DNA of 64,000 nt. It comes from Psychrobacter ciconiae. Lineage in GTDB: Bacteria; Pseudomonadota; Gammaproteobacteria; Pseudomonadales; Moraxellaceae. The stretch spans positions 1,922,001 to 1,986,000 of the forward strand of contig NZ_CAJGYV010000001.1 of NCBI RefSeq assembly GCF_904846055.1, in the 5' to 3' direction. Under the pieces are notes generated by a model that worked only from the letters and a program-made list of their open reading frames with translations, was not told the DNA's origin and did not search any database. This document shows positions 19,214-32,222 of the stretch, in pieces. Both the position numbers and the translations under genes were made by a program. How positions within the stretch are numbered: position 1 is the first letter of the stretch; each line of letters opens with the position of its first letter.

Positions 19214-20263
19214 TCAGTTTAATAAAGGCAGGCAATCAAAGTCGCTTGGACCGTCACTAATCGTCCCAAAAACAGCAGCGCGATTGATAATTTCAGCCGC
19301 CCAAGAGCGGTGCGTGGCAGGCTCAAGCATGGTGTTGTTAAATTTAAATACGGCTTTTGCCTCAGCGTGCAGCACCTGCTGAGCTTCCTCTAGGATACTG
19401 CTTGGGACGCAAAATGCTTGCTGAACCAGAGCAATTTGGCTTGGGTGAATCACCGTTTTGCCAACCAAACCAAGACTGACATCACGATTAAGCTCTTGCA
19501 TAAACAGCATGGGCTGGTCGAGATATTCAAATACCGGCGCGGTCAAATAAAAGCCATGCGGCACAAATGCGCCAAGCAGCTGATAGGCAAGCATACCGAC
19601 GGGCGTATCATAAACGATGCTGTCTTTTGGTCGGCGAAGTCTAAGCGCCGCAAACAAATCATTGCCGCCGATTCTCAGGGCGAACACCGTTTGATTAAAT
19701 GCCTCTTTAAATGCAGCGGCAAGCTCATCGTTATGCTGCGGATTAAAAACCGCCGCCGTTTCAAGCGTTGGCATCAACAGCTGATGCTCATCATGAACCG
19801 CGCAAGCCTCAACCCATTTTGGTAGGGTGAATAAATCAACCTTTGGCAATACAAAACCATCTATCAGCTCAATATGGTCAAAGTCTGCCAGCCCGCGTAG
19901 CATTTCAGGGTTTCTTGGGCGCACAAATACCAATGGTCGATTAGGATGGTTATTATTTTTATCGTGAGATTGGCTTGGGTTACGGATGCTGTCGGCGTTG
20001 AGTTGCCACGTATTGAGCAGCGATTGCAGCTGTATCAGCGCCAACTCAACATCGCTATGGCTTACCGCGTCCTCAAGACAAATGATGATGCTGTTAATCG
20101 TTGGCAGTTTATCGCGCTTGATCACTTGCCAAATGTCTTGGCGCGTTGCAGGCATATACAAGCTTGCACCAAGCTGATAAGGATGATGGGCGTAAGCTTG
20201 AGCTTGGTGGTGTGAAGCGGTAGCTTGGGCAGGCAAATTTAGGCTGGCAAGGTTCTCTGGCAT
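19214..20263 (-). CDS. HpcH/HpaI aldolase / citrate lyase beta-like protein of the Ter-linked module
   Basis: A 349-residue TIM-barrel protein related to CitE. Visible CoA/acid-lyase features are SIIICLEDAVSHSDVE (metal-ligand Glu-Asp, about residues 58-73), PLVFVRPRNPEML, a Glu in LMPTLETAAVF, LRIGGNDLFAALRL and the late GKTVIHPSQIALVQQAF. It is the last gene of the six-gene minus-strand operon, 86 bases after the StiP-like gene. CitE-like proteins recur with TRSP phosphoribosyltransferases, HAD and ATP-grasp enzymes next to terD genes. There they are proposed to make a nucleoside-like metabolite. The true substrate is unknown. Confidence 0.88.
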   Translation of the reverse strand: MPENLASLNLPAQATASHHQAQAYAHHPYQLGASLYMPATRQDIWQVIKRDKLPTINSIIICLEDAVSHSDVELALIQLQSLLNTWQLNADSIRNPSQSHDKNNNHPNRPLVFVRPRNPEMLRGLADFDHIELIDGFVLPKVDLFTLPKWVEACAVHDEHQLLMPTLETAAVFNPQHNDELAAAFKEAFNQTVFALRIGGNDLFAALRLRRPKDSIVYDTPVGMLAYQLLGAFVPHGFYLTAPVFEYLDQPMLFMQELNRDVSLGLVGKTVIHPSQIALVQQAFCVPSSILEEAQQVLHAEAKAVFKFNNTMLEPATHRSWAAEIINRAAVFGTISDGPSDFDCLPLLN

Positions 20264-20349: not shown

Positions 20350-21504
20350 CTAAGGCGCTCGCTGTTTGATTAAGGTTACCGCTTGATAAGGTAAAATAAT
20401 ATCGCCGATAACCTCTATTTTAATATCGCGCGCCGAACATAGATGCCGAAGCAGCTCGGTATCTGGATGATGGCTCGCGGCAAGTAACACGCGCTCAGGG
20501 TCACGGCGCAAAATGGCTCGCGTGGCCTCCGCTATTGTCGGCTTAATCCGGTTGCGATTGCTGATATGAAACCGACTTGCCAACTCGTCGATAATGGCGC
20601 ACGTCGTATATCGCGGCTGAGTGTAGGTCGGCAGGATGGTTGGCGATTGAGTTAAGTTTTGTCTTGCATTATCAATTTGATTGATAAAATCAAGGCTGAC
20701 ATCCGCATTTTTTAAATCATCATAAATGACGCAGCGATGCAGTCTTGACGGTTCAACCGCTTGTAAACTGCGTGAAATCAGCCCCGAAACTGTACTGTTA
20801 AGTAGCCCAGAAGGAATGAGCCAATCGTCCGAGCTTGCCGAAAGCCACGCTACGCCCGCAGGGTCAGCAAGGGTTAATAGCGGAATAACCCCTTTGCCTT
20901 GATGAAAAATCTGGCTAAAATTGGCATGCGCTGGGTCATTAAACGGCGCAAGGCTTGCCGCAAGTTCCTCATAGATCGCGCCTTTTCCCGTCCAACCATC
21001 AACAAAGACAATCGGGCTTGCTGGAAATTGCTCTAAAATAAGCTTGAGCGCCACCAAATCCAAACCGCGACCGCGCAAAATGCTGATGCCAAAATGCCGG
21101 CTTGGCACTGCATTTTCGTGAAGCGCGCGCTGCAATAATACGCCGATGGGCAATCCTGCCCGAACAAGGCTAACTAAAATAAGTGGTTGGTTATTATTAA
21201 GTAGTTGATTGCTATCAGTTTTTTTTACAAAAATTTTGGTAAGCGTTGCAGTTAAATTGGCAATCTCGGCTGCCATTCTATTTTTGCCATCATCAAGGGC
21301 GGTTTGATAAAGCGCAAGATGCTCAGGGGTCGGCGCGGTCTCAAGGGTGAGCATTTCAGAATAATGCCGCTGACCACTTTGAATCAGTACCTCTTTTTGC
21401 GCGGTCGGCACGTTTGCAATTGCGTCTTGTTCTACCACGTCAAGCAGCACCGTGACATCACTTGGCAAATAGCTTCCTGACCCAAAATCATTGATTTGTA
21501 TCAT
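20350..21504 (-). CDS. StiP-family (PRTase-like) protein with C-terminal PELOTA-like domain
   Basis: A 384-residue protein of the family annotated as cysteine protease StiP N-terminal domain, which comparative genomics treats as a phosphoribosyltransferase relative of Ter operons. Signature stretches are SGQRHYSEML (about 43-52), LVSLVRAGLPIGVLLQRAL (about 110-128), HFGISILRGRGLD, VFVDGWTGKGAIYEEL (the PRPP-loop position, about 167-182) and a Gly-rich WLIPSGLLNST. The last 50 residues (HPDTELLRHLCSARDIKIEV to LIKQ) resemble a PELOTA/L7Ae-like RNA-binding end. It lies 20 bases after the HAD gene. A proteolytic function seems unlikely from context. Confidence 0.87.
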   Translation of the reverse strand: MIQINDFGSGSYLPSDVTVLLDVVEQDAIANVPTAQKEVLIQSGQRHYSEMLTLETAPTPEHLALYQTALDDGKNRMAAEIANLTATLTKIFVKKTDSNQLLNNNQPLILVSLVRAGLPIGVLLQRALHENAVPSRHFGISILRGRGLDLVALKLILEQFPASPIVFVDGWTGKGAIYEELAASLAPFNDPAHANFSQIFHQGKGVIPLLTLADPAGVAWLSASSDDWLIPSGLLNSTVSGLISRSLQAVEPSRLHRCVIYDDLKNADVSLDFINQIDNARQNLTQSPTILPTYTQPRYTTCAIIDELASRFHISNRNRIKPTIAEATRAILRRDPERVLLAASHHPDTELLRHLCSARDIKIEVIGDIILPYQAVTLIKQRAP

Positions 21505-21524: not shown

Positions 21525-22322
21525 TTAAATAGATTGGGTTAAATGGTCATGAAGCTGACCGCGAGCAGGCATGCCATACCAATCAAGACCTTGCAAAAAT
21601 GGCAAATCCGCCAAACTGTCACCAAAGCCAAAGCTTGGTCGGTCTGAGTCTAAATGGTTGTTAAGCAAAAAATTGACCGCGTTTTTTTTGTGAACCGCTT
21701 GCGGCAAAATCGCTAAATTATTGGCATTGACATGAATATAAAAAGTATCGGCAAAATCGGGAATAAGTGACGGCAGCTTTTTTGCCAAAGTTGCAAGCGC
21801 CTCATGGTCTTTTTGCGGATGCTTAATTGCCAAATAAGCCATTAAGTCATTACCACAAAAGCTATCGTTATGCGGTGTAAATCGTAAATCTGCAAATTGC
21901 ATCTTAATCATATCCGTCATTGCATTTAATTTATCTTGTAATGGCAACAGGGCGGAATGCATTTGCTCTTGCCAAGACTCAAGCGGCGTGCCTGCTGGCG
22001 TGACAATGCGCGCCCCATGGGTCAGCACTTGCCAACTGGCAAAGGGCAGTTTTACCCGCCGGATTTCGTCTTTATCGCGAGCGGTCACGACGATTAATTC
22101 GGTACTGGCAAACAGCCAATTGACAAAGGCATTTTGCCGAGCGCTCATAAAGCTTAGCGGCTCATCTTGCTTATTGACCGCCGCGCAAATCAGCGTTTTG
22201 TCGTTTGTTGCCAGTTGCCAAGCGCTCATTTTGCGTTTGGTTTGAAATAGCGTGTCGTCCAAATCCATAAAGGCGTAGGGCAAAATAACGTTTGAATAAG
22301 GGCTAAAAAATGTCGCGCTCAT
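21525..22322 (-). CDS. HAD-superfamily phosphatase of the Ter-linked module
   Basis: A 265-residue hydrolase with the haloacid dehalogenase motifs: MDLDDTLFQ (residues 19-27, nucleophile and acid Asp), VVTARD (motif II Thr near 79), and FGFGDSLADLPFL (motif IV, about 233-245). A C2-type cap probably fills the middle. It is soluble and cytoplasmic, and expected to remove phosphate from a pathway intermediate. The gene is 31 bases downstream of the TRSP phosphoribosyltransferase and 20 bases upstream of the StiP-like gene, on the same strand. HAD proteins of this length are a standard part of the Ter-associated biosynthetic set. Confidence 0.88.
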   Translation of the reverse strand: MSATFFSPYSNVILPYAFMDLDDTLFQTKRKMSAWQLATNDKTLICAAVNKQDEPLSFMSARQNAFVNWLFASTELIVVTARDKDEIRRVKLPFASWQVLTHGARIVTPAGTPLESWQEQMHSALLPLQDKLNAMTDMIKMQFADLRFTPHNDSFCGNDLMAYLAIKHPQKDHEALATLAKKLPSLIPDFADTFYIHVNANNLAILPQAVHKKNAVNFLLNNHLDSDRPSFGFGDSLADLPFLQGLDWYGMPARGQLHDHLTQSI

Positions 22323-22353: not shown

Positions 22354-23577
22354 TTAAAACGACGGCTCAGGACTGACAATCAGCACGTTGTCCAAGTTTT
22401 GCCAAAGCGCATCCACGCTGTCGTTTGGCGTCTCTATACAAAGGACAATCAAATCCCAAGCGCTTGGCGCGACATTATAAACAAAATTGGTCATACCAAG
22501 ACCATAGTTATCCCGAAAGCTGAGCCTCTCGCTGATGGCACAGCCCATCGCAATCGGTGAGCGGGTGAGGGCACTAAAACAAACGCGGTGCTCTGAGTCT
22601 TGCAATGAGGTTTGTTGTTCCAAATGCTCTGCCAATAAAAACGGCAACCAAACAAACTCATTGCTCCCCAGTACCAAAATGCGCTTAGGAAGCTCAGAGC
22701 TTTCGCCAAACTTGCGCGAAAAGCGGTCCCAAAAATCGGCTAAATAGTTGCCAAGCCCTGAGGCGCTATCAAATGTCGGCTGCCGTCCCCAATTTCCTGT
22801 CGGCAAAATGGGCTCAGAGCCTGCTGCCGTGGTATCAAGGCTTGGCATTGAGATAGCTTTAGGGTTTGGCGCGTCCGACCACTGCCAGCTTCCTGCCAAT
22901 AAATGCTGCCGAAAAAATTGGATGCCTTTTGCGTCTTGGATTTCTGCCCCCGAATCAAGCGACCAATCAACGAGCGTTGCCAAATGCACCTGCTCAAGCT
23001 GATTCAGCCCTGCTGCTTGCAAAGCATGAACCACATTTTTGCAAGTGTTTCCCGTTGAGGCTTCATCATCAACCATAATTAGCGTTCTGGTATTTAAAAT
23101 GGCTTGTTGAATGTGCTCATCATCACTTTGATAAATCAGGTGATGGCTGGCGTGGCTGTGGTCTTCGCTAAAGGTGGTGAGCAGTTTGGCATCGGCGTGG
23201 TTAATCGCGTGGCGGGTTGAATTTAATAAAAGCGCGTTTGGGTAGCGCGATTGCAGCACTTGATGAACGCCGGCGGACAGTCCAACGGCAGTTTCTGCCA
23301 TGCCAATGACCAAAATCGGCTCGGGCAAACCGTCTGGAATCAATCCTGCTAACTCGCTAAAGGCGCGGCGCATCACGCTTGGGGCGACAGGAATATGGCG
23401 ACCAAGGACTTTTGACACAAATAAAAACGCCCGCTTTGGGTTAATGCGCTGAGCAAAGTCCAATAAATCGGTAATGTCATAGCGATTATCAAGGTTTGGG
23501 TTGCTTTGATAAGTTAAATCAAGCGTTCCTCGGGGTAGGGTGACGGTAAGTTGGGATGGGCTGTTATTTTGGTTCAT
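22354..23577 (-). CDS. Phosphoribosyltransferase with C-terminal TRSP domain
   Basis: A 407-residue protein combining a type-I phosphoribosyltransferase domain (PRTase_2) with a TRSP domain. The PRTase part shows LVIGMAETAVGLSAGVHQ (about residues 95-112) and the PRPP-binding loop LIMVDDEASTGNT (about 163-175). The C-terminal domain carries the name-giving ALTRSPIAMG near residue 338, followed by ISERLSFRDNYG. The pair is specific to Ter-linked operons predicted to build a nucleoside-like compound. It lies three bases after the NYN gene stop, so the two are surely co-transcribed and probably translationally coupled. Confidence 0.92.
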   Translation of the reverse strand: MNQNNSPSQLTVTLPRGTLDLTYQSNPNLDNRYDITDLLDFAQRINPKRAFLFVSKVLGRHIPVAPSVMRRAFSELAGLIPDGLPEPILVIGMAETAVGLSAGVHQVLQSRYPNALLLNSTRHAINHADAKLLTTFSEDHSHASHHLIYQSDDEHIQQAILNTRTLIMVDDEASTGNTCKNVVHALQAAGLNQLEQVHLATLVDWSLDSGAEIQDAKGIQFFRQHLLAGSWQWSDAPNPKAISMPSLDTTAAGSEPILPTGNWGRQPTFDSASGLGNYLADFWDRFSRKFGESSELPKRILVLGSNEFVWLPFLLAEHLEQQTSLQDSEHRVCFSALTRSPIAMGCAISERLSFRDNYGLGMTNFVYNVAPSAWDLIVLCIETPNDSVDALWQNLDNVLIVSPEPSF

Positions 23578-23580
23578 GTT

Positions 23581-25332
23581 TTAAAGCGCTTCCGTAACTG
23601 GTTTTGTAGTTTTCTTTGTTGGTAAATTATCGCTGATATAGGTATTTCTCGGCAGTAGCTTCCAGAACAGATCATCACGCTTCAAACTAAACAGCATAAA
23701 ATTTTTACCTTCTTTTTTGCTGACATCAAAACATCTTTTAATTGGTGTAAGATTTCCTCTGCTATAGATATAAACCTCAACTATAGGACAGCCGTGACTT
23801 AATTCGTAACCTATTTTACCTTTCAAAATAAAAGATAAGTTATAAACAGCTGTAGATATTTTATTGAAGTTACAAGAAAATCTAGATTTGGTAATGCCAC
23901 TTGAAGTCTTCGGTGTTAATAAAATGGCACTGTCAATGCTAAAGCGCTGATTTGGGCAAATAATATCCTCAGCGATTTCAAAATCATTATCATTATGACA
24001 AATCAAAGCCACTTCTGTTTTGCTGCTGGCATAAATATCAATAGTCAAATAACTGTCGTGATTAAAGCCAGTAAAAGTTGGTTGAGGCTGTTTTGACACA
24101 CTCGGCTGATTCTGTGCTTGTATGATTTTTTGTGGTTGAGACGCGGCAGGCAGGTTTTTTTGTTTGGTCTGAATAAAAATGCCATTGTCTTTTCGGCGAA
24201 TATTGTAAATATCTAGTGCTAAAAGCAACTCTGAGAATTTTGCAAAGCCATATTTTTTCCAATTGATATTGGGATGGTGTTGCCTGATTTGACTGACAAC
24301 ATAAGACAAGTTTGTCCAGCCATTATCAGGACTTGGATTTTCTTTGATGAGCTTGTCAATCACGCTGATAAAATGCGTCTGTTTTTGTAGCTTTTCAGTT
24401 GACCACTGCGACGAAGTCGGAGGGCTGCTTGTTGCTGATAAGACAGGATTGACTTTCATCACCTTTGGTTTTAGCCGTATATAAAGTGTTGAATTGTTGG
24501 CTTTGGTTTCAAATAAATCAATGGTTCTGACAATATCGGTAAATTTGCTATAGCCATAATATTTTGCATCAAATTTTGGGAGTACTTCTTGTAATTTTTT
24601 GCCAACCAATCCTGCATTTACCCAGCCGTCCTTAGCGGTTTTTGGGTGATTGCTGACAGCGTCGCGTAAGCCGTTTAATAGTTTAGTGTCGCATTTAAGC
24701 TGATTTTCCGTCCAAGCCTGAACAACGGGGCTGATAGCAACAGCTTGACTTGGTAACGTATTTTTCGATATTTTTGGCGTTGGCGTTGGCGTTGGCGTTG
24801 GCGTTGGCGTTGGCGTTGGCGTTGGCGTTGGCGTTGGCGTTGGCGTTGGCGTTGGCGTTGGCGTTTCGGCAGGCTGGCTTAAATATTCAATAAAATAAAA
24901 GTTATCGCAAGATTGAATAAAAGCATCGTTGGTATTTCTTTTGCCAAAACCAATGGCTTTTGTTTTGTTCTTACGAATGCGAATGGCAAGCGGGGTAAAG
25001 TCGCTGTCACTCGATATCAAGCAAAAGCCATCAAACTCTTGGCTATAAAGCAAATCCATGGCTTCGATAACCATCGCAATGTCGGTGGCATTTTTACCTT
25101 TAATAAAAGCAAACTGCTGAACTGGTTCAATAGCGTGGCTCAACAGCTCAGATTGCCAGCTTTGCAAATGTGCGCAGCCCCAATCGCCAAACGCTTTTTT
25201 GCAGCCGATAGTACCAAGTGTGGCGATTTTTTTGAGAACCTCGCCGATACTTTTGGCAGAGGTGTTATCAGCGTCAATAAGAACGGCGATATTATTTAAT
25301 TTGATAGCAGTTTGCGCTAGGTTATTGGTCAT
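23581..25332 (-). CDS. NYN-domain RNase-like protein with two LOTUS/OST-HTH domains and a TerD-like C-terminus
   Basis: A 583-residue multidomain protein. Residues 10-150 form an NYN (PIN-like) nuclease domain of the LabA type, with acidic sites in VLIDADNTS (Asp20, Asp22), [12 protein letters not shown] and [13 protein letters not shown] (Thr-Pro)15 linker follows at about 156-186. Two OST-HTH/LOTUS domains lie at about 207-287 and 309-390, each ending in YGYSKF/YGFAKF and a beta hairpin. Such domains bind RNA. Residues 425-583 have no name I know, but their order ([48 protein letters not shown]) parallels the second half of TerD domains. The gene overlaps the ATP-grasp gene by four bases (ATGA). 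Confidence 0.87.
24776..24865. repeat. Perfect hexanucleotide tandem repeat, 15 copies of GGCGTT
   Basis: Fifteen uninterrupted copies of GGCGTT on the plus strand (AACGCC on the coding strand) encode the Thr-Pro linker of the NYN protein. Because the unit is six bases, gain or loss of copies keeps the frame and changes only linker length. Confidence 0.97.
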
Positions 25333-26411
25333 TCAATTTTTACCCCAACCGTAATCGCCCGAACTTGACAGGGTTTGATTTGCTGACGAACCGCTGCAAG
25401 CGTTGGTTTTGGGGTAAGTCCAAGCCAGTAGCCCAAGCCAATTTGGGTCAAGTCAATGCCGCTGTGACGGGTGTAATCAATCCCGCCGGATGGTCGGCTA
25501 TTGATTTCAAGGATGCGGTGGTTGCCATCAACGTCCGCTTTGGTTTGAACGCTGACGATACCATCACAGCCAAACGCGCGAATCAAAGGCGTGACCACAA
25601 TCATTACCGAATCATCAAGACCAATATGTTGGATTTTATCCATTTTATGGCGCGTGATGGCAGCTAAAATCTCGCCGTTCTCACAAACCACATCGATAGA
25701 AAACTCTTGACCAGACAAGTAGGGCATCAGCAGCATCGGAATGGGCTTATTTTTAATCATGCCGCTGTGCTGATAAGCGCTAATAAACTGCTCAAGATGA
25801 ATTTTCTTATCTTCGGTAAAGTACAGGTGCTCAAAGCTGTCATAAGCGTTGACGGCTCCGGTATCCAGCTGCCAAAATCCTTGGGCAAAAATACCGCTGA
25901 CTGGTTTTACGCAAAGCGGCTCGTTGCCATGCTTAGCTAATAAATCTTGCAACTCAGCAAGCGTTTCAAAGCGCCAAGCGGTCGCCACCGGAACGTTATG
26001 GGCTTGGCAGTGCTGCATAAAGGCAAATTTGTCATCGATGGCGGCAAGGCTTTGGGTCGACGTTGCCCCCGTTAATAAGCGAATTCCCGCTTTAGTAAAC
26101 TCATCGCGGTGCGCTTCATAATCAATGCTGTTACGACCGGTCAGCAGCACTTTGACATTGTTGTCGCGGGCGTGATTGAGCACAAATTGCCATCGCGGTA
26201 AGGCGTTTTTGTCATTGTCTTTTGGTTCAACAAATACCTTATCGGCAAATTCAAAAATCTCAGGGCGATTGTGGCGGTGCGAGGCAATGATGGTAAATGG
26301 TAACGTTGATTTGGCTTTAAGCGCTTGTAAGCTTTGTAGCATATCGCGCTGGCTTGATTGACCCTCGGCAAGCCAAACGGCAGGAATATTTTTAGCTGAA
26401 TCATTGCTCAT
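25329..26411 (-). CDS. ATP-grasp ligase of the Ter-linked module
   Basis: A roughly 360-residue ATP-grasp enzyme of the carbamoyl-phosphate-synthetase-like group, expected to activate a carboxylate with ATP and join it to an amine or thiol. The B subdomain shows EPLCVKPVSGIFAQGFW (about residues 164-180), the ATP-hinge region is PYLSGQEFSIDVV, and the metal-binding end is ILEINSRPSGGIDYTRHSG. The frame extends to a TTG at 26438, and ATGs lie at 26417 and 26411. The last has AGAG at proper distance and is chosen. It is the first gene of the operon, divergent from the TerA-type gene. Its substrate is unknown. Confidence 0.88.
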   Translation of the reverse strand: MSNDSAKNIPAVWLAEGQSSQRDMLQSLQALKAKSTLPFTIIASHRHNRPEIFEFADKVFVEPKDNDKNALPRWQFVLNHARDNNVKVLLTGRNSIDYEAHRDEFTKAGIRLLTGATSTQSLAAIDDKFAFMQHCQAHNVPVATAWRFETLAELQDLLAKHGNEPLCVKPVSGIFAQGFWQLDTGAVNAYDSFEHLYFTEDKKIHLEQFISAYQHSGMIKNKPIPMLLMPYLSGQEFSIDVVCENGEILAAITRHKMDKIQHIGLDDSVMIVVTPLIRAFGCDGIVSVQTKADVDGNHRILEINSRPSGGIDYTRHSGIDLTQIGLGYWLGLTPKPTLAAVRQQIKPCQVRAITVGVKIE

Positions 26412-26459
26412 AAACATCGCTCTAAATTGTTGCGCCAAAAGTCACTGTTGAAAATACCA

Positions 26460-26619: not shown

Positions 26620-27873
26620 ATGAGCCAAACTTTAGTTGCTGGCGCTAATGCCGCGCTACCAAACGACACCATCAGCGTTCGTATTGTAAGCCAATTGCCG
26701 ATTGATTGCGCCGCCTATCGCTTAAGCCATAGCGGCAAAGTTCGCGGTGACGGTGATATGATTTTTTATAATCAAACCCGATCTGACGATGGCGCAGTCA
26801 GCTTTCGCGGTCATGATGCGGACGGTTTTTTTGATATCAATTTAACCAATCAGCCTGCCGACATCGAAAAAATCGCCATTGCCTTTTCAAGTGACCAGCC
26901 ATTATCTCAGTTGGGCGATATTGATATTCAAGTGTTTCAAGGTCAAACGCTCCTCTTAAACTGCCCGCTGAGCGCCGCCAATCGCAGCGAAAAAGCAATG
27001 ATTTTGGCAGAGTGCTACAAACGTCAAGGCGCTTGGAAGTTTCGCTTTATTGCTCAAGGGTTTGATGGCGGGTTAAAGCCGTTGTCCGAGCATTTTGGCG
27101 TTGAAATCGCGGACAATCCTAGCCCTGTACCAACCCCGCCGCCAAGCCCGTTTCAAAACCAGTCCTCAGGGATTAACCCAAAGCCTGCCAATTCAAATCT
27201 TAACGCCCAAAATAGCACGCCGCCACCAGCGCCAACGGTCAATTTAAGCAAAATCACTTTGACCAAAAACCAATCGACGATCAATCTACAAAAGCGCGAT
27301 AACTTTGGCAAAATCTCCATCAATCTCAACTGGAATCAAGGCGGAAATCCTAATCCGCAAGCCCCCAAAAAAGGTCGCTTAAGCGATTTATTTAAACAAA
27401 ATAGCGGTGCAGCTCGCGTTGATTTGGATTTGGGCGCGATGATTTCGTTAAAAAATGGCGATAAGACTTTAATTCAAGCACTTGGCGGCAATTTTGGCGA
27501 TTTGCAGCGCGCGCCGTTTGTTTGTCTTCGCGGCGATGACCGAACCGGTCAGGTTTCCGGCGGCGAGTGGCTCGATATCAATGGCGCTCAGTGGTCGCAG
27601 ATCGATGAAGTGCTGGTTTTTGCCTTTATTTATGAGGGCGTTCCAAATTGGTCGCAAACCGACGGCGTGGTAACCATTTATGTCCCCGGGCAGCCACCGA
27701 TTGAAACGCGGTTGACCGAAGGCGCGGGTAACCTGCCAATGTGCGCTATCGCTCGCCTTGTGAATCAAAACGGCAGCATCAACGTTGAGCGCCTTGACCA
27801 ATATTTTCAAGGTCATCAATATATGGATAAGGCCTTTAATTGGGGCTTTAACTGGAAGCGCGGTCGCAAATAA
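26620..27873 (+). CDS. terA: TerA-type tellurium resistance protein with N-terminal TerD-like domain
   Basis: A 417-residue cytoplasmic protein. Residues 1-170 are a TerD-fold domain, recognisable from SGKVRGDGDMIFYNQTRSDDGAV and the closing CYKRQGAWKFRFIAQGFDGGL, but without the GDNRTG calcium-binding loop of TerD/E/Z. A Pro/Asn-rich linker (about 170-230) leads to a TerA domain with LNWNQGG, ARVDLDLGAMI, LRGDDRTGQVSGGEW and VFAFIYEGVPNW. That domain keeps a GDDRTG version of the acidic loop. It is the only plus-strand ter gene here, divergent from the ATP-grasp operon and convergent with terZ. An AAGGATAATTT ribosome site precedes the ATG. Confidence 0.92.
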   Translation: MSQTLVAGANAALPNDTISVRIVSQLPIDCAAYRLSHSGKVRGDGDMIFYNQTRSDDGAVSFRGHDADGFFDINLTNQPADIEKIAIAFSSDQPLSQLGDIDIQVFQGQTLLLNCPLSAANRSEKAMILAECYKRQGAWKFRFIAQGFDGGLKPLSEHFGVEIADNPSPVPTPPPSPFQNQSSGINPKPANSNLNAQNSTPPPAPTVNLSKITLTKNQSTINLQKRDNFGKISINLNWNQGGNPNPQAPKKGRLSDLFKQNSGAARVDLDLGAMISLKNGDKTLIQALGGNFGDLQRAPFVCLRGDDRTGQVSGGEWLDINGAQWSQIDEVLVFAFIYEGVPNWSQTDGVVTIYVPGQPPIETRLTEGAGNLPMCAIARLVNQNGSINVERLDQYFQGHQYMDKAFNWGFNWKRGRK

Positions 27874-27958: not shown

Positions 27959-28567
27959 TTAAACAAACGGTACAATCGCCGGCATCAAGTCATGAAAAGT
28001 GCGACCGGTGGCAATCTCGCCAATGGCGTGCATTTTCCACTCGTTATTATGGCGATAGACCTTTGCCATAATCAGCGCGGTGTGGTTGCCTTGCGCGGAT
28101 AAGTCATAGCGGGCAACTTCGTTATTGTTATTGGCATCAATCAGGCGGCAATAGGCGTTGGCTACGCTATCAAAGCTTTGACCGGTGAAGCTGTTAACAG
28201 TAAAAACAAGGGCAGTGACGTTGCTTGGAACGCGCGATAAATCAACGTTGATGACCTCATCGTCACCATCGCCTGCGCCGGTTCGGTTGTCGCCTGAATG
28301 GGTAATGCTGCCGTCTTTGGATTGCAATTGGCTAAACCAAATCGCATCGACCTGCTGTTTATTAGCATCAAACATAATGCAAGACGCGTCAAGGTCGATG
28401 GAATCTCCGCCAACGCCGCCACCAAACAGCTTTCCTAACAGTCCTGATTTTTGCGGGACGTTTTGGGTTGCTACATCCCAGCCAAGACCAAGCTTGACGC
28501 GGTTTAATTCGCCGCCGGCTTCTTTAGCCAGCGATATTTTTTGACCTTTTTGTAAACTGACTGCCAT
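27959..28567 (-). CDS. terZ: TerZ-type TerD-family calcium-binding protein
   Basis: A 202-residue cytoplasmic stress protein of the TerD family. It has the N-terminal KLGLGWD, the TerZ-specific insertion GLLGKLFGGG (about residues 42-51), the DLDASC strand, the calcium loop HSGDNRTGAGDGDDE and the closing VYRHNNEWKMHAIGE. The insertion and the C-terminal GRTFHDL distinguish TerZ from TerD and TerE. The family binds Ca and is linked to tellurite, colicin and phage tolerance. The molecular role is still unsettled. It lies 53 bases after the TIGR00266 gene on the same strand, likely one transcript. Confidence 0.92.
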   Translation of the reverse strand: MAVSLQKGQKISLAKEAGGELNRVKLGLGWDVATQNVPQKSGLLGKLFGGGVGGDSIDLDASCIMFDANKQQVDAIWFSQLQSKDGSITHSGDNRTGAGDGDDEVINVDLSRVPSNVTALVFTVNSFTGQSFDSVANAYCRLIDANNNNEVARYDLSAQGNHTALIMAKVYRHNNEWKMHAIGEIATGRTFHDLMPAIVPFV

Positions 28568-28620: not shown

Positions 28621-29373
28621 TTATAAAATATTATTTAAAAAGCCATTGCTACCACCGCGACCGCCTGAATTTGTTCCAAAAATACTTTGTAGCCAGCTTT
28701 GGTAGCTGTCGCGGTTGCGTGAGCAGATGACCACTTTACCGCTGCCAGAGAAGTTCAAAACCATCCCTTCGCCACTGGTCACCGAGTTGATGATATTACC
28801 CATAAAGCCTTTATTTTTACTGGTGGATACTGACAATTTATAATCAAGCCTTGAGTCCCAACAAACGACGTGACCGTTATCAATGATGACATCTTTATCG
28901 GGGGTGACATCAATTTCAAACAAAGAGCCAAACCCTGACACCACCACTTGACCATGACCGTGAGTTTGCATCACCATAAAGCCGCCGGTATCACCGAATA
29001 TCGCGCCACCGAGGTTACGCTGAATTTGTGCGCGGATATCCACGCCCGACTGCGCCGCGACAAACGCGCCGTCACTTAGGGTATATTGGCAATTGCCCAC
29101 GTCCAAAATCTGCATATCGCCATCAAGCGTTGGCGCAAGCAGACAGTCGCCCTCGCCATGAACCGCCTCGATTTGCTGCTGAAACAGCGACTCATCATTA
29201 GCAAATCGGCGCATCAAGGATTGCATGATTCCGCCTTGAAGTTTACCTTTTAGCTCAAGGTTCGACTCCATCATCACCATTGCGTTGGCTTCACAAAATA
29301 TCGAATCGCCTTTTTTTAGATTGCAATGTAAAAACGGTTCAATCGTGCCAATCAGGCTAAAGGTCGCCGCCAT
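28621..29373 (-). CDS. TIGR00266 family protein (AIM24-like)
   Basis: A 250-residue all-beta protein of the TIGR00266/DUF124 family, related to mitochondrial AIM24 and the tryptophan RNA-binding attenuator-like fold. Typical stretches are FCEANAMVMMESNLELKGKLQGG (as two adjoining blocks near residues 26-48), DCLLAPTLDGDMQIL, and GGFMVMQTHGHGQVVVSGFGSL (about 131-152). It ends in a Gly/Ser/Asn-rich tail. The family often neighbours terD genes and is thought to act in stress responses, possibly at membranes. It sits between terZ and terE on the same strand. Confidence 0.9.
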   Translation of the reverse strand: MAATFSLIGTIEPFLHCNLKKGDSIFCEANAMVMMESNLELKGKLQGGIMQSLMRRFANDESLFQQQIEAVHGEGDCLLAPTLDGDMQILDVGNCQYTLSDGAFVAAQSGVDIRAQIQRNLGGAIFGDTGGFMVMQTHGHGQVVVSGFGSLFEIDVTPDKDVIIDNGHVVCWDSRLDYKLSVSTSKNKGFMGNIINSVTSGEGMVLNFSGSGKVVICSRNRDSYQSWLQSIFGTNSGGRGGSNGFLNNIL

Positions 29374-29497: not shown

Positions 29498-30073
29498 TTA
29501 AACGTTAACGCCAAAAGAGGCAGCTAACGGTCCAAGACCACCATTAAAGCCCTGACCTACGGCGCGGAATTTCCAATCGCCATTATGGCGGTACAACTCG
29601 CCAAAAATCATCGCCGTTTCGGTGCTGCCGTCTTCTGATAAGTCAAATCGCGCAATTTCAGTGCCACCGTTGTCATTGACGATACGGATATACGCGTCGC
29701 TGACTTGACCGAAGTTTTGATTGCGGGTTTGACCGTCATAAATGATGGCACAAACAGCAACTTTGCTCACATCGCTTGGGATGCTGGCTAGATTTACTTT
29801 GATGGTTTCGTCATCGCCTGCGCCTTCACCAGTTCGGTTGTCGCCGGTATGCTCAACCGCGCCGTTGTCTGATTTTAAATTGTTAAAAAAGATAAAGTCG
29901 CTATCATTACGAACTTTGCCGGCGTCGTTAAGCAAAAAGCCAATCGCGTCCAAGTCAAAATCTTGACCGTCGGTGGCGCGTGGGTCCCAACCAAGCCCTA
30001 CAGTGATATTGGTAAGCCCTGGTGCTTCTTTTGATAAGTTAACGTTACCGCCTTTGGTTAAGCTGATTGCCAT
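29498..30073 (-). CDS. terE: TerE/TerD-family calcium-binding protein
   Basis: A 191-residue protein with a complete TerD domain: [20 protein letters not shown] (metal Asp residues), [11 protein letters not shown], the [13 protein letters not shown] loop, [11 protein letters not shown] and the final [19 protein letters not shown]. The length, EAPGL start and FFNN strand match TerE more than TerD. It is cytoplasmic and probably oligomeric. A 124-base gap separates it from the TIGR00266 gene downstream. Upstream is a 271-base spacer before the end of the DUF475 gene, so it may have its own promoter. Confidence 0.92.
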
Positions 30074-30344: not shown

Positions 30345-31418
30345 CTATTCAGCTGAAGTTGTTTTTGCTTCAAGCTTTCGATGTTTGATAGAAGCAAAAA
30401 GAGCCCAAACAATAAAGGCAACCCCGATAAGCCCTGTGACCAGCTCCGGAACTTCAAAGCGCATTGACAGGAGCATGATGATGGCAAGCGCGCCGATGGC
30501 ATAATGTGCGCCATGCTCAAGGTAGATGAACTCATCAAGCGTGCCTTTTTCTACCAAAAAGATGGTCATCGATCGCACAAACATTGCCCCAATAGCCAGT
30601 CCTAACATGATGATAATCACGTCATTGGTAATGGCAAACGCGCCAATCACCCCATCAAAGCTAAAGGACGCATCAAGCACTTCTAAATATAAAAACCCGG
30701 CAATCCCGCCTTTCATAATGGCGCTTCCTGCAGCCGCCGCGTTACCTTGTTCGGCAGCTTCTTCAGTTTCTTCCAAGTCGCCTTCGAGCATATTAGATAC
30801 CACTTGAACGCCAAGGTAAATCAAGATACCCCAAATTCCTGCCATCAAGACGACTGAGTCTTTGGCATCATCAACCCAAGACAGCGACAATACCAAAATC
30901 GCCAGCGCCACAAACACGCTCATGGCATCCACCTGACCAAATCTTGCCAAGCGTCCCTCAAGCCAGTCGAACCAATGTACGTCTTTGTCATCAAATAAGA
31001 AGTTTAAGAACACAAGAAGTAAGAACATGCCGCCAAATGCTGAAATCTCTGCGTGGTGTGCAAGCAATTTTTCTGAGTATTCAGTAGGATTGTAAAGCGC
31101 CAGATTGACCACTTCCATCATCCCAAGGTCTGCCGTCACCGCAACGATGACAATTGGGAACACCAGTCGCATCCCAAAAACGGCAATCAAAATACCGACG
31201 GTTAAAAATATCATTTTCCAAAATTTGTCCCAGTGCTTGAGAACCGAGGCGTTCACCACCGCGTTATCAAACGACAAGGAAATCTCCATCACCGCCAAAA
31301 TTGCGGTAATCGATAGCGCGGTGATCAGCCCGCCCAAGCCGCCGTGGGAGTAGCCCCACCACGAAGCAACCACAAGCGCAATCGCGGTAAAAATAAAGTC
31401 TAAATAAAAATGTCTCAT
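30345..31418 (-). CDS. DUF475 integral membrane protein (TerC/LysE superfamily)
   Basis: A 357-residue inner-membrane protein with eight to nine hydrophobic helices. The motif EISLSFDNAVVNASVL (about residues 46-61) and its echo LDASFSFDGVIGAFAIT (about 227-243) are the two acidic intramembrane signatures of the TerC/LysE exporter superfamily. The loop FDDKDVHWFDWLEGRL is typical of DUF475. In ter clusters this protein takes the place of TerC and is proposed to form a membrane complex with TerD-type proteins, possibly handling metal ions. It lies between terE and terD, with terminators on both sides, so it appears monocistronic. Confidence 0.9.
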   Translation of the reverse strand: MRHFYLDFIFTAIALVVASWWGYSHGGLGGLITALSITAILAVMEISLSFDNAVVNASVLKHWDKFWKMIFLTVGILIAVFGMRLVFPIVIVAVTADLGMMEVVNLALYNPTEYSEKLLAHHAEISAFGGMFLLLVFLNFLFDDKDVHWFDWLEGRLARFGQVDAMSVFVALAILVLSLSWVDDAKDSVVLMAGIWGILIYLGVQVVSNMLEGDLEETEEAAEQGNAAAAGSAIMKGGIAGFLYLEVLDASFSFDGVIGAFAITNDVIIIMLGLAIGAMFVRSMTIFLVEKGTLDEFIYLEHGAHYAIGALAIIMLLSMRFEVPELVTGLIGVAFIVWALFASIKHRKLEAKTTSAE

Positions 31419-31646: not shown

Positions 31647-32222
31647 CTAAATATTGACGCCGTATTGATGACACATGGCTTGCAGACCGCCAGAGTAGCC
31701 TTGACCGACCGCGCGAAATTTCCACTCGCCGTTATGACGGTAAACTTCGCCAAACACCATCGCTGTTTCCACCGAATAGTCCTCTGCCAAGTCAAAGCGA
31801 ACGACTTCAGCGCCCGTATCTTCGTTAACCACGCGGATAAAGGCGTTAGCAACTTGACCGAAGTTTTGATTACGGCTGGCTGCGTCATGAATGGTAACCG
31901 TCACCACGATTTTGTCGATGTCCATAGGCACTTGGGCGAGGTTGACTTTAATCACCTCATCGTCGCCATCGCCTTCGCCAGTTCGGTTGTCGCCGGTGTG
32001 CTCAATCGCGCCGTTGTCTGATTTTAATTGGTTATAAAAAATAAAATCATGGTCGCCGCGGACTTTACCGGCATTGCTGAGCAAAAACACGCTGGCGTCC
32101 AAGTCAAACTCCGCCCCTGACGTTGCGCGCTCGTCCCAACCAAGACCGATTAATAGTTTATTCAAAGTGGGGTCAGTTTTGGTCAGCGATAAGTTGCCGC
32201 CTTTACTAAGAGATAACGCCAT
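31647..32222 (-). CDS. terD: TerD-type calcium-binding stress protein
   Basis: A 191-residue TerD protein. Nearly every stretch matches plasmid Ter[53 protein letters not shown], the [13 protein letters not shown] calcium loop and [19 protein letters not shown]. It is predicted to be cytoplasmic, binding Ca through the conserved Asp residues. The gene lies upstream of DUF475 with a strong terminator between, so it is probably its own unit. A ribosome site AAGGACAA precedes the ATG, and a TATAAT lies about 30 bases upstream. Confidence 0.95.

Follow-up and report, generated by a model that had tools for sequence, protein, structure and literature searches.

What brings a gene for a NYN-type nuclease into a Ter biosynthetic operon, and what is the unnamed domain at the C-terminus of its product? 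The question arises from a 64,000-nucleotide stretch of Psychrobacter ciconiae (assembly GCF_904846055.1, contig NZ_CAJGYV010000001.1, positions 1,922,001 to 1,986,000 of the forward strand), which as a whole is called the window here. An earlier note, made from the sequence alone, had placed an open reading frame at 23581..25332 and read its product as a NYN domain, a (TP)15 linker, two OST-HTH/LOTUS domains and a C-terminal domain. The reading frame is real and its position holds, but it lies on the minus strand, running from an ATG start at 25332 to 23581 (583 amino acids). The domain order agreed with the Pfam matches and with a hexamer array in the DNA.

23581..25332, minus strand: NYN - (TP)15 - LOTUS - LOTUS - degenerate TerD protein, 583 amino acids
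24886..25293, minus strand: NYN nuclease domain, residues 14-149, with D20, D84 and D109 invariant in alignments A1 and A2
24774..24865, minus strand: in-frame hexamer microsatellite coding for the (TP)15 linker
24472..24708, minus strand: OST-HTH/LOTUS domain 1, about residues 209-287
24166..24399, minus strand: OST-HTH/LOTUS domain 2, about residues 312-389
23620..24069, minus strand: degenerate TerD-type beta sandwich, about residues 422-571, without calcium loop

The NYN domain was matched by PF01936 with an E-value of 3.7e-34 (118.8 bits versus a cut-off of 24.2), and OST-HTH (PF12872) was matched in two stretches (E 6.5e-22). The linker is encoded by a perfect TTGGCG array (15.3 copies, 100%). 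At E <= 1, the C-terminus gave no meaningful Pfam family and no match to TerD (PF02342).

A TerD-derived tail

As direct detection of TerD by Pfam failed in the window protein, the case for the tail rests on intermediates, fold and tree. First, when a protein database was searched with the window tail, one of 194 candidates, P0001, proved to be a relative, and therefore the ortholog L005 was used as query instead. Its TerD part retrieved 49 clusters (5.8 billion proteins searched). According to the precomputed Pfam column, NYN, OST-HTH and TerD occur together in 45 of these, and all five clusters carrying an organism name are from Psychrobacter. The Pfam gathering score for TerD, not reached by the window protein, was reached by seven orthologs. 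Second, a fold search with the full-length protein returned NYN first, and ranks 4-7 and 9 were taken by TerD entries. A subsequent AlphaFold2 model of the isolated tail, the fold comparison that the earlier note had proposed, showed the TerD fold. Third, the tree placed the window tail inside the clade of NYN-linked TerD domains (100/100), with long branches flagged, and the TerD sequences closest to the NYN-fused domain were those of the neighbouring TerA-like genes (93/81).

The motif order FNKIS-x-V-x-x-LSFIL ... VEVYIY ... RCFD ... L-x-R-D-x-x-FWKLLP, which had been likened to the second half of TerD domains, agreed with the alignment. The aligned TerD motif, which we take to be the calcium loop, was absent from the window tail, from the other aligned NYN-fused tails and from the N domain of the TerA-like protein. 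Like the tail, to which it is the nearest TerD kin, the TerA-like protein of the window (26620-27873) thus lacks the loop; unlike the NYN protein, it carries no fused enzyme. The tail is a TerD domain by descent, of the TerA type, with the calcium loop lost. The ortholog Pfam matches, the predicted fold and the tree bear out the suggestion of a degenerate TerD domain, and the earlier interpretation as a whole is supported.

Selection on the TerD part was assessed in six orthologs (15 pairs). The proportion of nonsynonymous differences (pN) was below that of synonymous differences (pS) in all 15 pairs. For the close pair L006/L007, the nonsynonymous (dN) and synonymous (dS) rates of the TerD part were 0.015 and 0.114 (ratio about 0.13), similar to those of the NYN parts (0.017 and 0.136). 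The TerD tails of the orthologs are under purifying selection. Between the window tail and L003, synonymous sites were saturated, and dN/dS was not used. The tail of P0001 is 97% identical to that of the window; its TP run is visibly shorter and the protein is 22 residues shorter overall, so linker length varies. TP runs of a similar kind recur in other proteins of the family.

The operon and its variable slot

The neighbouring genes of the window were annotated as follows.

25329..26438, minus strand: ATPgrasp_Ter gene, upstream edge of the variable slot (PF15632 E 2e-31)
22354..23577, minus strand: PRTase_2 + TRSP gene, downstream edge of the slot (PF15609 E 1.5e-53, PF12500 E 1.8e-17)
21525..22322, minus strand: HAD-type hydrolase gene (PF08282 E 5.1e-6)
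20350..21504, minus strand: StiP + PELOTA_1 gene (PF11202 E 1.5e-79, PF15608 E 3.9e-23)
19214..20263, minus strand: C-C_Bond_Lyase (CitE-like) gene (PF15617 E 2.9e-95)
26620..27873, plus strand: TerA-like long TerD protein, divergent (PF02342 E 1.1e-26, residues 25-159)
27959..28567, minus strand: TerD paralog (PF02342 E 6.9e-55)
28621..29373, minus strand: AIM24 protein (PF01987 E 2.1e-53)
29498..30073, minus strand: TerD paralog with canonical calcium loop (PF02342 E 1.3e-84)
30345..31418, minus strand: TerC-family membrane protein (DUF475/TerC; PF04332 E 1.7e-113, PF03741 E 1.6e-14)
31647..32222, minus strand: TerD paralog (PF02342 E 3.1e-87)

The ATPgrasp_Ter, PRTase_2+TRSP, StiP and C-C lyase genes stand in one run and form the Ter biosynthetic operon, in which the NYN gene is second, as the earlier note had it. 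The 5' end of the NYN frame shares four nucleotides (25329-25332) with the upstream ATP-grasp gene, and three nucleotides separate its stop from the PRTase-TRSP gene. Beyond the divergent TerA-like gene follow an AIM24 gene, a TerC-family gene and three TerD paralogs.

Counting the window's own genome each time, TRSP (PF12500) was found in 86 of the 199 genomes searched at family level, 61 of which belong to the same genus as the window; the figures were 8 of 369 at class level and 12 of 398 at phylum level. The survey covered 103 TRSP neighbourhoods, namely 60 genus loci (window excluded), 26 other family loci and 17 class or phylum loci; operon genes were mapped by tblastn, and several non-genus loci were cut by contig ends. 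At 8 of the genus loci, the stretch upstream of the PRTase-TRSP gene held NYN together with a TerD-protease; 4 had only NYN, 28 only the protease and 1 a protease remnant. Another 10 had other content, and at 9 the stretch was empty, with the ATP-grasp gene adjacent. The neighbourhood survey that had been suggested thus placed NYN in the same slot at 12 of 60 other genus loci. NYN was present in none of the 26 other family loci and none of the 17 class or phylum loci, and the protease in two of each set. The window slot holds NYN and no protease, and its genome gave partial matches to the protease half only. Among the 12 slot NYN proteins, a recognisable TerD tail was found in seven, a degenerate one in one (L185, the same gene as L003) and none in four (L130, L135, L167 and L176).

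The PELOTA-like RNA-binding end that had been attributed to the operon is indeed present, as the PELOTA_1 domain of the StiP protein. Together with the tight spacing between NYN and the biosynthetic genes, it would fit a nuclease that takes part in biosynthesis, cutting RNA so that the PRTase-TRSP and StiP-PELOTA enzymes have a substrate supplied or processed for them. However, NYN occupies the slot at 12 of 103 TRSP loci and at 0 of 43 outside the genus, which means that the pathway runs without it, and a Moraxella copy (genome G075) is present without a detectable pathway. We regard a biosynthetic part for the nuclease as very improbable.

Across the Psychrobacter loci (L112-L214) the slot was hypervariable. 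Apart from the TerD-protease and NYN, it contained oppositely oriented genes, their nature judged by eye, namely two recurrent families of about 246 and 235 amino acids, a 398-amino-acid transporter-like family and a 421-amino-acid family. In two Moraxellaceae loci (L126 and L138) a TerD gene was accompanied, by eye, by vWA (TerY-like), PP2C phosphatase and protein kinase genes. A DnaJ-domain protein (PF00226 E 2.2e-6) lay between the TerD-protease and PRTase-TRSP genes at L143:4939-6009.

The slot protease and the Moraxella loci

The second slot occupant, a 410-amino-acid protein (cluster of 43), consists of an N-terminal TerD stretch followed by Trypsin_2. In seven scanned slot proteases, Trypsin_2 was matched with E 6.4e-21 to 8.9e-25 and TerD with E 1.6e-8 to 8.8e-4, the latter over the cut-off in three (L035, L115 and L125). 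On a Pseudomonas kurunegalensis plasmid the same slot was found in the order ATP-grasp, TerD-trypsin, PRTase, phosphatase, StiP and CitE-like, with TerD over the cut-off (E 4.5e-8). The TerD-Tryp architecture has been in print since 2008 for P. syringae (YP_273108.1, PMC2605481). Like the NYN protein, the protease combines TerD with what may be an effector enzyme, and its gene sits in the same slot of the operon; it differs in that TerD is N-terminal rather than C-terminal, the enzyme is a protease rather than a nuclease, and the TerD domains form their own clade (100/100), parted from the NYN-linked tails by a 96/86 branch. Most simply, TerD therefore joined slot enzymes twice. The protease half at L035:364-1593 also matched PADLOC RT-Protease_XI, a defence-associated protease domain (E 7.6e-19, residues 205-369).

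Linkage to Ter genes was specific to one NYN clade. Of the top 80 NYN-type loci in the genome collection, only L032-L035, all Moraxella or Psychrobacter, had a Ter gene in their flanks; the other 76 had no Ter gene within their flanks, with only 46 of the 80 loci being 15 kb or longer. The 25 Ter-linked NYN rows formed one clade against 11 other NYN domains (100/100). On the poorly resolved tree, TerD presence needs three changes, and one gain with two losses is possible, not demonstrated.

At the Moraxella loci L215, L217 and L216/L032, the NYN-LOTUS-TerD gene neighbours a trypsin-like gene and lies beside TerD and AIM24 genes, and the biosynthetic operon is not adjacent. In two cases LemA-type and large membrane-protein or M48 genes intervene. 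The proteases of L215 and L217 matched Trypsin_2 in Pfam and gave no TerD match at 0.01; a home-made TerD profile gave E 5e-4 for those of L215 and L216, and both fell into the protease TerD clade. As a further observation, a LemA gene (Pfam) at L217:3377-6274 and a LemA-like gene (by eye) at L032:4915-7784 each stand next to a large protein gene (an M48 peptidase in L217), between the TerD and trypsin-type genes. No match to StiP, PRTase_2 or TRSP was obtained in G075, the genome of L215 (99% complete, 110 contigs). In G025 and G106 all three were found elsewhere in the genome, with the ATP-grasp gene adjacent.

These loci bear on two further explanations. As general background on the Ter biosynthetic module, the ATP-grasp/PRTase/HAD/StiP/lyase operon is thought to make a nucleotide-like metabolite. 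The tail could be a receptor for this metabolite that switches the ribonuclease (RNase) on, like SAVED or CARF effector control. The place of the NYN gene between two biosynthetic enzymes and the TerD-protease in the same slot would fit, as would the proposal that TerD domains might recognise specialised nucleotide derivatives (PMC7159879). Yet G075, a draft of 110 contigs, has both slot-type proteins and no detected pathway, which weakens metabolite sensing; the operon is located elsewhere in G025 and G106, and the tail is of a TerD subtype that lacks the canonical loop. A receptor function is unlikely.

Alternatively, the gene could be a passenger: a general NYN-OST-HTH enzyme of RNA decay, present as a lineage-specific copy, would have landed in a hypervariable slot and gained its tail by chance from the terA next to it, with the tail now in decay. 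Unrelated genes occupy the slot in many genomes. At 4 of the 12 slot loci the NYN protein lacks the tail, which in the window and L003 is degenerate. The fused TerD domain has its nearest relatives in the neighbouring terA-like genes (93/81) and evolves more quickly than NYN. Against this stand the purifying selection on the ortholog tails, the persistence of the fusion beside Ter genes at a different site in Moraxella, and the TerD fusion of a second, unrelated slot enzyme. We give this explanation a low probability, though one that is highest for the window, whose own tail shows the strongest drift.

Predicted function and known systems

NYN domains are metal-dependent RNases, and D13 of a B. 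fragilis NYN protein is required for cleavage; its D13, D118 and D143 correspond to VPA0982 D14, D92 and D115 (PMC11346440). D84 and D109 of the window protein aligned with VPA0982 D92 and D115 (profile alignment, numbering offset of 3 inferred), and D20 was placed at D14 by the first-strand motif only. The three invariant aspartates point to a predicted RNase activity. The LOTUS domain of MARF1 is reported to bind G-rich RNA (PMC10226599). Ter proteins are reported to form an inner-membrane complex in which TerC interacts with TerD (PMC5822837). Combining these reports, the protein is, by a narrow judgement, probably a metal-dependent endoribonuclease of the Ter system, its LOTUS domains acting on RNA and its TerA-type tail tethering it to the TerC/TerD complex. 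The NYN domain would cut RNA that the two LOTUS domains select or hold, and the loop-less TerA-type domain would dock the enzyme on the membrane-associated complex. Stress sensed by the Ter complex may then release or position the nuclease. The TerD-trypsin protease of the same slot would be a second effector, attached likewise.

Several observations weigh against this tethered RNase. As relatives with a TerD domain were part of the AlphaFold2 alignment, the predicted fold is not wholly independent of these. The window tail lies under every Pfam threshold and on a long branch, and may thus have lost the former role of the domain. The tail changes faster than the nuclease domain, with pN greater for TerD than for NYN in 14 of the 15 pairs of orthologs. 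The slot is without a NYN gene at 91 of 103 TRSP loci, and the four tail-less slot proteins indicate that the tail is not needed for being there; as the slot also harbours unrelated, oppositely oriented genes, co-location alone is weak. Three aspartates are assigned in the NYN domain, versus four needed by MARF1 (PMC10226599). All three Moraxella loci lie at contig ends and only L215 is intact, the NYN frame being interrupted by a stop in L216/L032 and N-terminally short in L217.

A predicted RNA-cutting enzyme with a worn TerD copy in the Ter cluster of the cold-loving Psychrobacter suggests that Ter, a poorly understood system for tellurite and phage stress, can recruit an RNA-destroying enzyme. 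More tentatively, and with less than even confidence, Ter may be a stress or conflict system built of modules, with TerD-type domains as the common adaptor that brings interchangeable effectors, a trypsin-like protease or a NYN-LOTUS RNase, to the complex of TerC and TerD. The interval from the ATP-grasp gene to the PRTase-TRSP gene would be an effector exchange slot, comparable to the effector-associated domains of other bacterial conflict systems.

Bacterial LK-nuclease (DUF88) proteins with OST-HTH share the N-terminal nuclease plus LOTUS arrangement. For these, no link to other known RNA-processing systems was reported from conserved gene neighbourhoods, and a standalone role was suggested (Biol Direct 2010, PMC2848206); in contrast, the proteins studied here are a distinct clade tied to Ter genes, with a TerD-type tail. 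That potential RNases can be encoded next to TerD genes has a precedent in HEPN genes, which are coupled on a few occasions with a TerD-dependent anti-phage system, but their fold is HEPN rather than NYN, the system is a different one with a McrBC-like part, and the link is by operon and not by TerD fusion; in the available part of this source NYN appears only in a reference title (PMC3710099). MARF1 and DNE1, eukaryotic NYN and LOTUS endoribonucleases, differ in their eukaryotic mRNA decay partners and in that no TerD-type domain is mentioned for them. Among the PADLOC anti-phage defence models, the NYN protein gave only HEC-09 (E 0.0054), with no stretch passing. It was matched by 366 plasmid records, in none with 80% coverage in one place. 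The literature search found no published record of a NYN-TerD fusion; the 2012 Ter comparative genomics of Anantharaman, Iyer and Aravind lay outside it and may mention one. The parts were already known, and what is new is their combination, its lineage and the slot common with the TerD-protease.

At least one ter gene occurs in 2,623 of 5,398 genomes; resistance to tellurite, phages and colicins is mentioned, and the mechanism remains to be elucidated (PMC5822837). An RNase and a protease, each fused to TerD in one slot, offer a testable handle, namely that Ter action may be carried out by attached effectors. In one lineage, the bacterial NYN-LOTUS nucleases, which in 2010 were called probably standalone and unlinked to known RNA-processing systems, gain a defined partner system. 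The window genome also holds a second NYN protein, L002 (G000:C1:1425730-1426149), which has a weak LOTUS match and a NYN part 49% identical to that of the window protein, and lies outside the Ter-linked clade.
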